64,000 bases of DNA from Rhodospirillaceae bacterium. Lineage in GTDB: Bacteria; Pseudomonadota; Alphaproteobacteria; UBA8366; Aestuariispiraceae. The notes below the pieces were generated by a model, which was not told the DNA's origin, ran no database searches, and saw only the letters and a list, made by a program, of their open reading frames with translations. Shown here in pieces: positions 20,483 to 24,011 of the stretch (positions within the stretch are counted from its first letter, which is position 1; each line of letters begins with the position of its first letter). The DNA lies in the NCBI GenBank assembly GCA_002709955.1, contig PAQY01000007.1, forward strand, positions 124,001-188,000, in the 5' to 3' direction. Made by a program: the position numbers and the translations under genes.

Positions 20483-21241
20483 TCAATCGCGATAAACGGG
20501 CTCTTCCTCGTCCAGGATATCGCGCAGGGCGTTGAAATGCTTTTCTGCGGCACCTGGATAGGCGGCCCATTGACCAGCGGTTTTCTCTGCCACTTCATGG
20601 CTGGCAATGTTCAAGTCACGCCCGCTGGACAGGGCCAGGAACAGCGTTTCACAGGCACGTTCAAAGAAGAACAGTTCATCAAAGGCTTCCGCGACAGTGT
20701 TTCCAACCGTCATGACGCCATGCTGGCCCATCAGGAGGACGCGCTTGTCCCCCAAAACGGTGGACAGACGCTCTGCCTCGTCGCCCAGCCCCATGCCATC
20801 ATAGTGGTTGTCGACGGCAACACGGTTATAGAACCGCATCGTGGTCTGGTCGATGGGGGGAATGGACGTATCTTTCAGGGCCGACAAAGCGGTCGCATAT
20901 TTTGAATGGACATGCAGGATACAGCGCGCCTGGGGGTTGTTCCGGTGCATGGCCCCATGGATGCAATAGGCGGTCGGGTCGACGGCATCACCCATGCCCT
21001 CCGGCGCGACCTCAGTATTCAACAGCAGAAGGTCGCTGGCGCGCATTTTTGAGAAATGGCGGCCATAGGGATTGATCAGGAAATCCGTGCCATCGTCTGA
21101 TACGACCAGGCTGAAGTGATTGGCCACAGCCTCATGCATATTCAATCGCGCGGTCCAGCGAAACGCGCAGGCCAAATCTTCCCGTTCAGACTGATACGCC
21201 AGAGAGTGGGTTTTCGCGGCGGAGAATGCACTGACAGACAT
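20483..21241 (-). CDS. Class II aldolase/adducin family protein
   Basis: A 252-residue metal-dependent aldolase-fold protein. The zinc ligands are in RCILHVHSKYATAL and MGQHGVMTVG, with the family motif NPYGRHFSKMRASDLLLL near 60. Members include L-fuculose-phosphate aldolase, and many uncharacterised ones act on other substrates. Start ATG 21241 is chosen because AGGAGG lies at the right distance; a longer in-frame extension to 21355 has no such site. It is divergent from the ABC ATPase gene and 40 bp upstream of the flavoprotein, possibly in one transcript. The substrate cannot be named. Confidence 0.85.
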   Translation of the reverse strand: MSVSAFSAAKTHSLAYQSEREDLACAFRWTARLNMHEAVANHFSLVVSDDGTDFLINPYGRHFSKMRASDLLLLNTEVAPEGMGDAVDPTAYCIHGAMHRNNPQARCILHVHSKYATALSALKDTSIPPIDQTTMRFYNRVAVDNHYDGMGLGDEAERLSTVLGDKRVLLMGQHGVMTVGNTVAEAFDELFFFERACETLFLALSSGRDLNIASHEVAEKTAGQWAAYPGAAEKHFNALRDILDEEEPVYRD

Positions 21242-21432
21242 GGTTTTGAACCTCCTCGTTGAGGGTCGGAATTTCAGATATCGTCGAAAAGAGTGATCGT
21301 TCATCCCATTTTGCGCAATCAAATTCAATACTGCAAGGTCCTGACGAATGGGCATGCTGTTCAGTTTCCGAAGTGCCAGCCTTGCCCCCTAAAGAAAATG
21401 TCGCATCCGGTTAGTGAGAATCCACCTTGTTG

Positions 21433-21449
21433 ATGTAACTATATAACAT
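21433..21449. promoter_or_regulatory. Candidate Zur-like operator upstream of the His-rich ABC operon
   Basis: A 17-base imperfect dyad, ATGTAAC-TAT-ATAACAT, 18 bp before the GTG start of the ATPase gene. It resembles alphaproteobacterial Zur boxes (ATGTTATA-type inverted repeats) and probably overlaps the promoter -10. The evidence is sequence similarity from memory plus the metal-binding look of the operon. Confidence 0.4.
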
Positions 21450-21466
21450 TATAGTCTGGGGATAGG

Positions 21467-22153
21467 GTGATTTCGCAGCAATTGATTGGGATACCGACCG
21501 TGATTTTAGCATCAAACAGTATTGTTGTCCGTCGCGGCGAGTCGCCACCGCTGTACCTTCCGGACCTGTCCATTGCATCCGGGGCACAGCTTCTGCTGAT
21601 GGGACCATCTGGGTCGGGAAAGACGACATTGCTGTCCGTATTGGCGGGATTACTGCCGCCGACGGAAGGCAATGTCCTGCTGGAACAGCAGAATTTTTAT
21701 GCCCTGTCGTCTGTTGCACGGGACCGCATTCGGGGGAAAACCTTTGGGTTCATCTTCCAGACGCTGCATCTGCTCCCGTCGCTGACAGTGGCCCAGAATG
21801 TCATGCTGGCAGCAGACATGGCGAAGGTCGCGGTAGAACCCGGACGTTTGGAGGACCTCTTAGCGAAGCTGGGTCTGGCCGATAAGGCGGATCGAAAGTC
21901 CGCAGCCCTGAGCCAGGGCGAACAGCAACGCGCCGCCATTGCCCGGGCTGTTTTGCTGCGCCCGAAATTGTTAATCGCGGATGAGCCCACATCGGCCCTA
22001 GATGATGCCAATACGGACGCTGTTGTCACGCTGCTTCAGGATCAGGCGACGGAGACTGGGGCTGCGCTGTTGATCGCCACCCATGACGCCAGGCTTTTGG
22101 ATCGTTTCGACACTGTGGTGACGCTGAAAACACAGGGAGGGCCTGTATCATGA
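21467..22153 (+). CDS. ABC transporter ATP-binding protein, LolD/MacB-type
   Basis: A 228-residue ABC ATPase. Walker A is MGPSGSGKTTLLSV, the signature is LSQGEQQRAAIARAV and Walker B is KLLIADEPTSALDD. It belongs to the LolD/DevA/MacB branch that pairs with FtsX-type permeases. Start GTG 21467 has a GGGGATAGG site just upstream; an in-frame GTG at 21500 is an alternative. Its stop overlaps the start of the permease gene by four bases (ATGA), so the two are translationally coupled. Confidence 0.9.
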   Translation: MISQQLIGIPTVILASNSIVVRRGESPPLYLPDLSIASGAQLLLMGPSGSGKTTLLSVLAGLLPPTEGNVLLEQQNFYALSSVARDRIRGKTFGFIFQTLHLLPSLTVAQNVMLAADMAKVAVEPGRLEDLLAKLGLADKADRKSAALSQGEQQRAAIARAVLLRPKLLIADEPTSALDDANTDAVVTLLQDQATETGAALLIATHDARLLDRFDTVVTLKTQGGPVS

Positions 22154-23487
22154 ATGCGGTTTCCCTTGCCGTTGCGGCCATTCGCGCCCGCCCGCTGCAA
22201 TCGGCTTTGTGCATTCTGTCGGCGACATTGGGCAGTGCCTTGCTGGTTCTGGTGTTTCTGCTGTCCCAAACCATTGCGTCTGGTTTTCAGCGCAATGCAG
22301 AAGGAATTGATATCGTCGCGGGTGCGAAGGGAAGCCCCCTGCAATTGGTGCTGTCGTCGGTTTATCATGCGGATGTTCCGGCCGGAAATATTGAAATGTC
22401 CGATTATCTGGCCTTGCAGAGGGACCGCCATGTGCGCCAGGCGATACCCCTGGCACTCGGCGACAATTATCAGGGCTGGCGGATGGTGGGCAGTACACCT
22501 GACTATCTAAAGCTTTATCAGGCTGAATTTGCACAGGGTCAGGTTTTCGCACAGCCGTTTGAAGCGGTTGTCGGCGCGGCGACCGGCATGAAACTGGGCG
22601 AAAGCTTCGCCGCCCGTCATGGCTTTGCAGCTGACAGCAACGATATCCATGATGCCGCTATGTACACCGTAACCGGTGTGTTGAAGCCGACAGGAACAGT
22701 GCTGGACAAGCTGATCATCACCAGTATGGAAAGTGTCCAGACGTTGCATTCCGGGCATCATCATGAAGACCATGAAGACGCGCAGGCAGAAGGACACGAA
22801 AAACATGATGATCATGATGCACACGATCATGATGAAGCACACGACCATGATGCGCACGACCATGATGCCCATGACCATGATGAAGCACACGACCATGATG
22901 CACACGATCATGATGAAGCAGCCGAAGAAGCGCTGGGCCATCAGGTTACGGCGGTCCTGATCAAGACCCGCAGCCCGATTGATCGGATGAATCTGCCACG
23001 TCAGATCAATCAGTCCTCTGATCTGCTTGCCGCCGTGCCCTCGCTGGAAATGGCGCGGTTGACCAAGAGTCTTGGGATCGGCAAGACCTTGATTCTTGCG
23101 CTGGGTGTCGGGTTTGTCGTGCTTTCGGCCCTTATTCTTCTTGCGTCTCTCGCCTCCAGCCTGGCGGTGCGGCGATATGATCTTGCGGTTCTCAGGGTTC
23201 TGGGGGCAAGTCCCGGAAAACTGCTGCTGACCGTCGTGGCGGAAGCGGTGTTGTTAAGCGGGGTCGGAACGGTGATCGGATTGGCGGTTGGGCATGGGGT
23301 CGGCTATATCGCCGCATTGAATATCGATACCCTTCAAGGCATAGTTCTGCCAGAGACGTTTCTGCAGGTGCATGTCCTTGATGGTGTGTTCCTGTTGCTG
23401 GGACTGGTAATTGGGATAACAGCCTCTTTGATCCCCGCGATTTCCGCTGCGCGGACAGATATTGCGGGATTATTGGCGAAAGGGTGA
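22150..23487 (+). CDS. FtsX-type ABC transporter permease with His/Asp-rich periplasmic segment
   Basis: A 445-residue permease of the FtsX/MacB type: one N-terminal span at about 15-40, a large periplasmic domain, and three C-terminal spans (about 318-342, 360-395, 410-432). Residues about 200-258 are a low-complexity run of His, Asp, Glu and Ala built on the unit HDHDAHDHDEA, with about 20 histidines, so it very probably binds Zn or another soft-to-borderline metal. The DNA of this run (22803-22920) is itself a tandem repeat. The gene overlaps the ATPase gene by 4 bp and the next gene begins 2 bp after its stop. The transported substrate is unknown; a metal or metal-lipoprotein role is suggested. 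Confidence 0.85.
   Translation: MNAVSLAVAAIRARPLQSALCILSATLGSALLVLVFLLSQTIASGFQRNAEGIDIVAGAKGSPLQLVLSSVYHADVPAGNIEMSDYLALQRDRHVRQAIPLALGDNYQGWRMVGSTPDYLKLYQAEFAQGQVFAQPFEAVVGAATGMKLGESFAARHGFAADSNDIHDAAMYTVTGVLKPTGTVLDKLIITSMESVQTLHSGHHHEDHEDAQAEGHEKHDDHDAHDHDEAHDHDAHDHDAHDHDEAHDHDAHDHDEAAEEALGHQVTAVLIKTRSPIDRMNLPRQINQSSDLLAAVPSLEMARLTKSLGIGKTLILALGVGFVVLSALILLASLASSLAVRRYDLAVLRVLGASPGKLLLTVVAEAVLLSGVGTVIGLAVGHGVGYIAALNIDTLQGIVLPETFLQVHVLDGVFLLLGLVIGITASLIPAISAARTDIAGLLAKG
22803..22920 (+). repeat. Tandem repeat encoding the His/Asp-rich segment
   Basis: Repeating units on the theme CAYGAYCATGATGMACAC fill about 118 bp inside the permease gene. The reading frame stays open and synonymous changes (CAC/CAT, GAC/GAT) occur between units, so the protein pattern is kept while the DNA varies. 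The copy number is likely to vary between strains. Confidence 0.85.
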
Positions 23488-23489
23488 TA

Positions 23490-24011
23490 ATGCGGAAAAT
23501 CCTGGCAGTGCTGATGTTTCTATGCGCGTCGCCGCCAGCCTTTGCCCTGTCGCAGGAAGAAGGAAGCCTGCATGGCACCAAGACGATCCTGGATTACATT
23601 GGCGATTATGTTGATGTGCCCCCCGGTGCGTTGGATTGGAAGGTCCTTGGGTCCACCAATGAGGTTCAGATCCAGACAAAAACCGATGATGGCTATGATT
23701 TGATTTATCAAAAGCCGGAATTTCAATCGGATGTGATGGCACTGGACGGGAAAGAGATCACCATAAAGGGATATATGTTTCCCCTGGACCAGACAGAAGA
23801 TCAGCGCCTGTTCCTGTTTGGACCATTTCCGATGAGCTGCCCCTATCAGTATCATGTTGGGCCGGCTTTGGTTCTGGAAGTCCATGCCCAGGATCATCCC
23901 GTCGCCTTCAGCTATGACCCGGTGCAATTGACTGGCACGTTGGAACTGGTGCCAGAGGATAAGGAATATAGTGTCTTTTATCGCCTGACGGATGCCAAGC
24001 AGGTCCATTGA
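23490..24011 (+). CDS. DUF3299-like exported protein
   Basis: A 173-residue secreted or periplasmic protein with a clear signal peptide (MRKILAVLMFLCASPPAFA, cleavage after about residue 19). The mature part includes the DUF3299-type motif KEITIKGYMFPLDQ and FGPFPMSCPYQYHVGPALVLEV, with one conserved Cys-Pro. Start ATG 23490 is preferred over GTG 23484, which overlaps the permease stop. It forms a three-gene operon with the ATPase and permease. ATPase/FtsX/DUF3299 sets occur in zinc-regulated operons of other proteobacteria such as Vibrio zrg (recalled), supporting a metal function. Confidence 0.75.
   Translation: MRKILAVLMFLCASPPAFALSQEEGSLHGTKTILDYIGDYVDVPPGALDWKVLGSTNEVQIQTKTDDGYDLIYQKPEFQSDVMALDGKEITIKGYMFPLDQTEDQRLFLFGPFPMSCPYQYHVGPALVLEVHAQDHPVAFSYDPVQLTGTLELVPEDKEYSVFYRLTDAKQVH

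Follow-up and report, generated by a model that had tools for sequence, protein, structure and literature searches.

A candidate ZrgA-less Zrg-type operon whose permease carries a histidine- and aspartate-rich run in a Rhodospirillaceae bacterium

Genes and features of the locus

The operon described here belongs to a Rhodospirillaceae bacterium of the Alphaproteobacteria (assembly GCA_002709955.1; genome of 4.23 Mb in 24 contigs) and lies within a stretch of 64,000 nucleotides of contig PAQY01000007.1, which was analysed as a whole and is referred to as the window. Among the 10 records listed of 114 matches, the adenylosuccinate synthase of this genome shares 71-73% identity with the enzymes encoded on Methylobacterium, Sinorhizobium and Azospirillum replicons, which points to an alphaproteobacterium and hence to the phylum Pseudomonadota. 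Three plus-strand genes, encoding an ATP-binding cassette (ABC) ATPase, a MacB/FtsX-type permease with a histidine-rich run and a DUF3299 protein, are preceded by a predicted Zur-type box. The features, in window positions, are as follows.

21434..21450, plus strand: predicted Zur-type box TGTAACTATATAACATT upstream of the operon, core GTAA-N5-TAAC, with 14 fixed bases in common with the znuA box
21467..22153, plus strand: ABC ATPase, 228 amino acids, start codon uncertain; PF00005 (ABC_tran) with an E value of 1.7e-33, over the Pfam cut-off
22150..23487, plus strand: MacB/FtsX-type, ZrgB-like permease, 445 amino acids; PF02687 (FtsX) and PF12704 (MacB_PCD), both over the Pfam cut-offs
22618..22623, plus strand: H157-G158 of the permease, with a near-invariant histidine of the predicted periplasmic domain (H157 in 94 of 95 sampled permeases)
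22648..22650, plus strand: near-invariant H167 of the permease (94 of 95 sampled permeases)
22747..22749, plus strand: invariant H200 of the permease, at the start of the run (95 of 95 sampled permeases)
22747..22923, plus strand: His/Asp/Glu-rich run, permease residues 200-258, with 20 His, 17 Asp and 7 Glu in 59 residues
23484..24011, plus strand: DUF3299 protein, ZrgE/PA4066-like, 175 amino acids; PF11736 with 26.8 bits against a cut-off of 22 bits

From the 4-bp overlap of each neighbouring pair we infer that the three genes form one operon. The coupling of the permease to an ABC ATPase and a DUF3299-like gene, proposed in an original prediction made from the DNA alone, is borne out by these overlaps and by the Pfam matches; the ATPase gene falls outside the range quoted there (22150-24011). 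In NCBIfam the ATPase resembled LolD, DevA and FtsE, with scores below the cut-offs of those families. The permease has hydrophobic stretches at residues 20-38, 314-332, 345-376 and 413-431, and its FtsX and MacB_PCD domains, four transmembrane helices (seen in the model) and large loop after the first helix place it in the MacB/FtsX superfamily; MacB proper, however, unites ATPase and permease in one chain, whereas here they are encoded by separate genes (21467-22153 and 22150-23487). Its AlphaFold model was of moderate quality (predicted local distance difference test score, pLDDT, 75; predicted template modelling score, pTM, 0.60), and the structure matched LolE, MacB and similar permeases.

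The DUF3299 protein begins with a hydrophobic, signal-like stretch, as judged by eye. The best fold match of its AlphaFold model (pLDDT 88), and the only one under an E value of 0.001, was PDB entry 4hsp (E value 2.6e-4, TM-score 0.42-0.48), which is identified as PA4066 (PMC8561739). A sequence search of PDB with this protein gave no match, and only the fold search provided the link to 4hsp. An ABC ATPase, a MacB/FtsX permease and a DUF3299 protein, the gene set of Zrg-type systems, are thus present in one operon. Including its own, 31 of 240 sampled genomes of the class contained a DUF3299 match, and the relatives were divided into a high-scoring DUF3299 set (Group A) and a low-scoring one to which the protein of the window belongs (Group B). 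An invariant Cys-Pro pair (C119-P120; window positions 23838-23843) is common to 14 aligned Group B DUF3299-like proteins, and some of them (L098, L041, L039) have CPxC at this site, which suggests a metal or thiol site.

The histidine-rich run and its relation to ZrgA

The run is situated in the large loop between hydrophobic stretches 1 and 2 of the permease, and the roughly 20 histidines in 59 residues originally reported for it were confirmed exactly (20 of 59). Outside the run the permease has just 7 histidines in 386 residues, and at this background rate 20 or more in 59 would be expected with a binomial probability of about 2e-20, or about 8e-18 once position is allowed for. Fourteen of the histidine codons are CAT and six are CAC, and the DNA of the run is a decayed tandem repeat with periods of 15, 33 and 48 bp (22813-22920). 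Residues 203-262 are predicted to be disordered (pLDDT below 50 in the AlphaFold model). In one relative (L328, genome G331) the tail contains a HEHEHE repeat, shortly past which the permease frame stops; this site may be prone to slippage. In a permease cut by a contig end (L067, genome G191, positions 1-828) a His/Asp repeat precedes the PTGTP motif and thus H200, instead of following that residue; G191 has no ZrgA match.

The three histidines marked above are almost always conserved among relatives. The sole exception at both H157 and H167 was the permease of genome G651 (R157, Q167). In an earlier set of relatives, H157 and H200 were present in all 91 Group B rows reaching this region and H167 in 88 of them, while in Group A each of the three was found in 13 of 13 permeases. 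The model places H157 directly after one strand (152-156) and H167 within another (166-178); H200 lies close to where a helix (193-201) ends. It is possible that H157, H167 and H200 together constitute a single three-histidine metal site.

Relatives of the permease are widespread. Among the best 80 of at least 580 relatives in a scan of named genomes were three from Micavibrio (50-58% identity), many from Bacteroidota (Algoriphagus, Pedobacter, Belliella and others), gammaproteobacteria, other alphaproteobacteria and a few more, so that named family members span alphaproteobacteria to Bacteroidota; ten Group B permeases could be aligned over their length. Within the genus the permease was found in three of six genomes searched (its own, G241 and G243) and was absent from G240, G242 and G244, and the distribution of the operon is therefore patchy. 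In G243 (L195), a genome listed with 7% contamination, the permease frame is broken by a stop after 85 residues.

How often the insert occurs among relatives had been posed as a check by the original prediction, and it proved to be recurrent. In 92 Group B permeases (including L195, which is cut off before this region) the segment after H200 had a median length of 39 and a maximum of 138 residues, and contained at least three histidines in 54, at least eight in 28 and at least 15 in 18 cases. The corresponding Group A segment comprised 27-31 residues and was devoid of histidine in 12 of 13 permeases; the exception (L065), with three histidines, belongs to a genome in which ZrgA was not matched.

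ZrgA (PF10986) was not detected over the cut-off, in the operon or elsewhere, by a profile search of the whole genome, in agreement with the earlier statement that no separate His-rich protein of this type is present. Three ZrgA-like matches below the cut-off occurred on other contigs, the best with an E value of 0.005 and one of them inside ZnuA. A sub-cut-off match of this kind (L082, G000:C16:53429-53506; E value 0.005) covers 27 profile positions and lies in another gene. Likewise, no ZrgA match was obtained in 42 further genomes, belonging to Group B relatives and congeners (40 from named loci, 41 of the 80 having been chosen and L105 left out, plus two congeners), in a search in which no control genome matched either; this result gains weight because the same model did detect ZrgA over the cut-off elsewhere, in 14 of the 31 class genomes and in 65 of the 398 phylum genomes.

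The relation between run and ZrgA was determined in a census of these 398 phylum genomes, which were drawn evenly and searched with a permease profile and with PF10986. A permease match with an E value of 1e-40 or better was obtained in 95 genomes, the genome of the window included (one of the two copies in G022 was used). In 63 of these ZrgA was present over the cut-off, while the other 32 had no match at an E value of 0.001 or better. None of the 63 permeases accompanied by ZrgA had three or more histidines in the segment after H200 (the highest count was 2), compared to 23 of the 32 permeases from genomes without ZrgA (Fisher p 4e-15). Two rows included in this count were corrected by eye (uncorrected, 21 of 32), namely G331 and G589, whose permeases had been shortened by the profile and whose histidines were set to six each from the visible letters; one of them is terminated by a stop codon within or close to the tail, and the other runs into masked bases.

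The result was similar when the short loop at residues 158-167 was counted together with the segment: at least three histidines were found in 0 of 63 permeases with ZrgA and in 26 of 32 without (23 of 31 when uncorrected and with G651 dropped; G651 is kept in the counts of 26 and 23 of 32), with G395, G507 and G579 reaching three only through the loop. For this combined region, thresholds of two and eight histidines gave 1 of 63 versus 27 of 32 and 0 of 63 versus 16 of 32, respectively, and collapsing the genomes left 0 of 37 versus 20 of 25 cells of genus and state and 0 of 22 versus 11 of 15 families. Two genera contain both states in the expected combination: in g290 three genomes have the tail without ZrgA (G578, G331, G589) and one has ZrgA without the tail (G669), and in g390 the ZrgA-less G638 has three histidines whereas G644, with ZrgA, has none in the segment. 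The original statement that FtsX/MacB permeases normally lack such a run, judged on the permease family counted here, holds for relatives with ZrgA (0 of 63) and fails for those without it (23 of 32). ZrgA proteins themselves contain a comparable run, with at least eight histidines within about 60 residues in 15 of 18 and five to seven in the other three (19 loci were taken; L076, read in the wrong frame, was left out).

A quick permease tree, calculated with the insert columns removed and uncertain in detail owing to long branches such as that of the window's permease, contained three clades: one with 13 Group B rows, a further ZrgA-less one with ten rows, seven of which have at least three histidines in the segment, and one with 71 rows that holds all 63 ZrgA-bearing and eight ZrgA-less genomes. 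In the last clade the tail occurred in 0 of 63 and 7 of 8 genomes, respectively. The tree required five changes of ZrgA and seven of the tail, or seven and nine when L065 and the two corrections were included.

The predicted Zur-type box and zinc control

The box upstream of the operon has a counterpart before znuA in the same genome. The znuA promoter (L035) contains TGTAATGATGTAACATT, which is identical to TGTAACTATATAACATT at 14 of 17 positions, a match for which the chance expectation in the 6.9-kb L035 locus is 0.01. The common pattern, built from both sites, occurred without mismatch only at these two places in the genome, and the window contained one match at up to three mismatches, against 0.05 expected. 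The 17-base box is identical in two congeners, and its core corresponds with one change to GTTA-N5-TAAC, the motif used for Caulobacter (PMC4176598). A weaker site with two mismatches, TGTAACTTTATAACATA, precedes a cobW/COG0523 gene (L205:266-1483, minus strand; G000:C11 near 339829), whose probable start is about 17 bp away, and COG0523 genes are included in Zur regulons elsewhere (PMC6103462). In addition, a FUR-family protein is encoded beside znuBC in this genome, with Zur as its best NCBIfam match, although below the cut-off (81 versus 167 bits).

A scan upstream of relatives with the consensus TGTTATANTATAACA gave clear matches in only part of them, including a perfect 14/14 palindrome in two (L155, L162). 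A box with at least 11 of 14 positions was present upstream of 10 of 40 proteobacterial Group B operons, compared to 34 of 1727 control stretches; these 40 comprise the operon of the window and those of two congeners, which are not independent, and leave out L108, whose ATPase gene runs off the contig. Without the two congeners the enrichment was 8 of 38 (p 1.5e-6). In two relatives (L043, L044) a znuA gene directly precedes the ATPase gene, and thus the promoter there would lie further upstream. A znuA-like gene was found in 4 of 107 related loci, and a gene nearer to the Zur of this genome than to its other FUR proteins in 9 of 107; among those loci Pfam confirmed three FUR-family proteins and one ZnuA. 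Since the box is shared with znuA, a weaker site precedes cobW and some related operons adjoin a znuA or Zur-like gene, control of the operon by Zur through the predicted box is likely, in line with the zinc handling considered in the original prediction.

Comparison with known systems and alternative explanations

The parallel to Vibrio drawn in the original prediction was correct. The Vibrio zrg genes comprise zrgE (DUF3299), zrgB (permease), zrgC (ATPase) and zrgA (DUF2796), all of which are raised under zinc limitation, and repression of zrgA by Zur has been shown (PMC9817125). Compared for ZrgA, ZrgB, ZrgC and ZrgE, the operon of the window resembles the Vibrio system in its ATPase (ZrgC), its DUF3299 protein (ZrgE) and its MacB-like permease, which like ZrgB has a large periplasmic domain; it is preceded by a predicted Zur-type box, and ZrgABCDE is controlled by Zur in Vibrio. 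It differs in having no ZrgA over the cut-off and a His/Asp run in the permease. With PA4063-PA4066 of Pseudomonas aeruginosa it shares the separate ATPase and MacB-type permease and the match of its DUF3299 model to PA4066, while no relative of PA4063, the ZrgA of that system, was found here, and the substrate there is argued to be pyochelin/cobalt. Like MacB and LolCDE permeases it has FtsX and MacB_PCD domains and a matching fold, but it differs from them by the run, the three near-invariant histidines and the DUF3299 partner, and from MacB by an ATPase on its own chain. A His/Asp-rich loop and the same kind of promoter box are also found in the ZnuABC system of this genome, which uses another permease family; the operon contains no ZnuA-type binding protein as in ZnuABC or cluster A-I importers, the only ZnuA match of the genome being on another contig. 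This ZnuA (L035, 3737-4750) has a His/Asp-rich loop of its own with a make-up similar to that of the permease tail. Neither a ZrgA-less Zrg system nor a His-rich ZrgB permease was found described in the literature searched, which mostly left out subscription journals.

The Zrg gene set, the absence of ZrgA over the cut-off, the mutual exclusion of run and ZrgA, the near-invariant histidines and the box shared with znuA make it probable that the operon encodes a form of the Zur-controlled Zrg ABC system (PA4064-PA4066-like) that lacks ZrgA and whose permease has its own metal-gathering tail. When zinc is short, release of Zur from the box at 21434-21450 would allow expression of the three coupled genes. 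The disordered His/Asp-rich tail starting at H200 would then collect zinc or a similar ion from the periplasm and hand it to a metal site formed by H157, H167 and H200 in the MacB-type periplasmic domain of the permease, thereby doing the job of the separate His-rich ZrgA of most sampled relatives, a role suggested by the mutual exclusion of the two in the sample. ATP hydrolysis by the ATPase, as described for MacB, would drive movement of the periplasmic domain, and the transport could be directed either way, with metal moving inward or a metal complex outward. More tentatively, ZrgB-type permeases may be metal receptors themselves by virtue of the triad, fed by the tail where present, with ZrgA as a detachable gatherer upon whose loss the run arose anew in the permease several times.

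Several observations weigh against the proposed ZrgA-less Zrg system. At up to two mismatches the genome contained 8 box sites compared to 14 for a reversed control, so that most of the six sites with two mismatches are probably due to chance (those other than the cobW site were inspected by eye only), and a shorter pattern was uninformative, with 30 sites versus 47 in the reversed control. In 30 of the 40 related proteobacterial operons no such box was present in the stretch scanned, and no enrichment was seen in Bacteroidota relatives (1 of 60 versus 26 of 2588 controls). The tail is encoded by a slippage-prone repeat. Moreover, 9 of the 32 ZrgA-less genomes, five of them Group B, have fewer than three histidines in the segment, indicating that the run is not obligatory and that the permease can exist with neither part; the original suggestion that the permease absorbed the metal-handling part is thus favoured by the exclusion (0 of 63 versus 23 of 32) and qualified by these nine genomes. 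A strict test of independent pairs on well supported branches left about three informative pairs, all as predicted (p 0.25), too few to prevent shared descent from accounting for part of the exclusion signal. V. cholerae can do without the His-rich loop of its ZrgA in vivo (PMC9820375), and the permease tail may accordingly be auxiliary. Finally, PA4063-PA4066 of P. aeruginosa have been argued to constitute a MacB-type exporter of pyochelin/cobalt (PMC11481552).

The last point leads to a possible, though less favoured, alternative: as has been suggested for PA4063-PA4066, the system may be an exporter of a metal chelate, or of some other molecule that the cell needs when starved of zinc, with the tail binding metal or stripping it off in the course of export. 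The MacB/LolCDE-type fold and the P. aeruginosa genetics are in keeping with this, while the Vibrio genetics indicate zinc acquisition (PMC9817125, PMC9820375). A slightly less likely alternative is that the tail lies outside the transport path and senses or buffers metal so as to tune the transporter, for instance by turning it off at high levels of periplasmic zinc. Such a role would suit a disordered tail adjoining H200, the dispensability of the ZrgA loop for growth and the micromolar zinc sites of PA4063, which was proposed to be a chaperone or concentration sensor (PMC8561739); however, the V. cholerae operon requires the ZrgA protein as such for its function (PMC9820375), and the tail accompanies the absence of the whole protein and not just of its loop.

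A functionless run, expanded neutrally from a GAT/CAT-type low-complexity repeat in a tolerant loop, would explain the tandem structure, the difference in length between congeners (65 versus 53 residues) and the range of 0 to 38 histidines among relatives, but we regard it as very improbable because the run excludes ZrgA (0 of 63 permeases in ZrgA-bearing genomes), and distant lineages share its place beside H200 and its His/Asp/Glu make-up, with both histidine codons in use. An ordinary MacB/LolCDE-like exporter without any link to metals, to which the best structural matches (LolCDE and MacB) and the generic Pfam matches might point, is the least credible explanation of all in view of the PA4066-like DUF3299 partner, the Zur-type box shared with znuA and the three near-invariant histidines.

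The role of Zrg-type, MacB-fold transporters in zinc starvation is disputed between zinc import in Vibrio and chelate export in Pseudomonas. A naturally occurring system that lacks ZrgA and has the run built into its permease would show which part of ZrgA must stay and where the metal must be delivered, and it makes the putative three-histidine site of the permease testable by point mutation. The operon therefore offers a good test case for metal handling by these poorly understood transporters.

The operon is flanked upstream by a divergently oriented gene for a class II aldolase (20483-21355, minus strand) and downstream by one for a polyprenyl synthetase. A different gene order was observed in one relative (L040:2826-5240, minus strand), in which the DUF3299-like gene is located ahead of the ATPase and permease genes.

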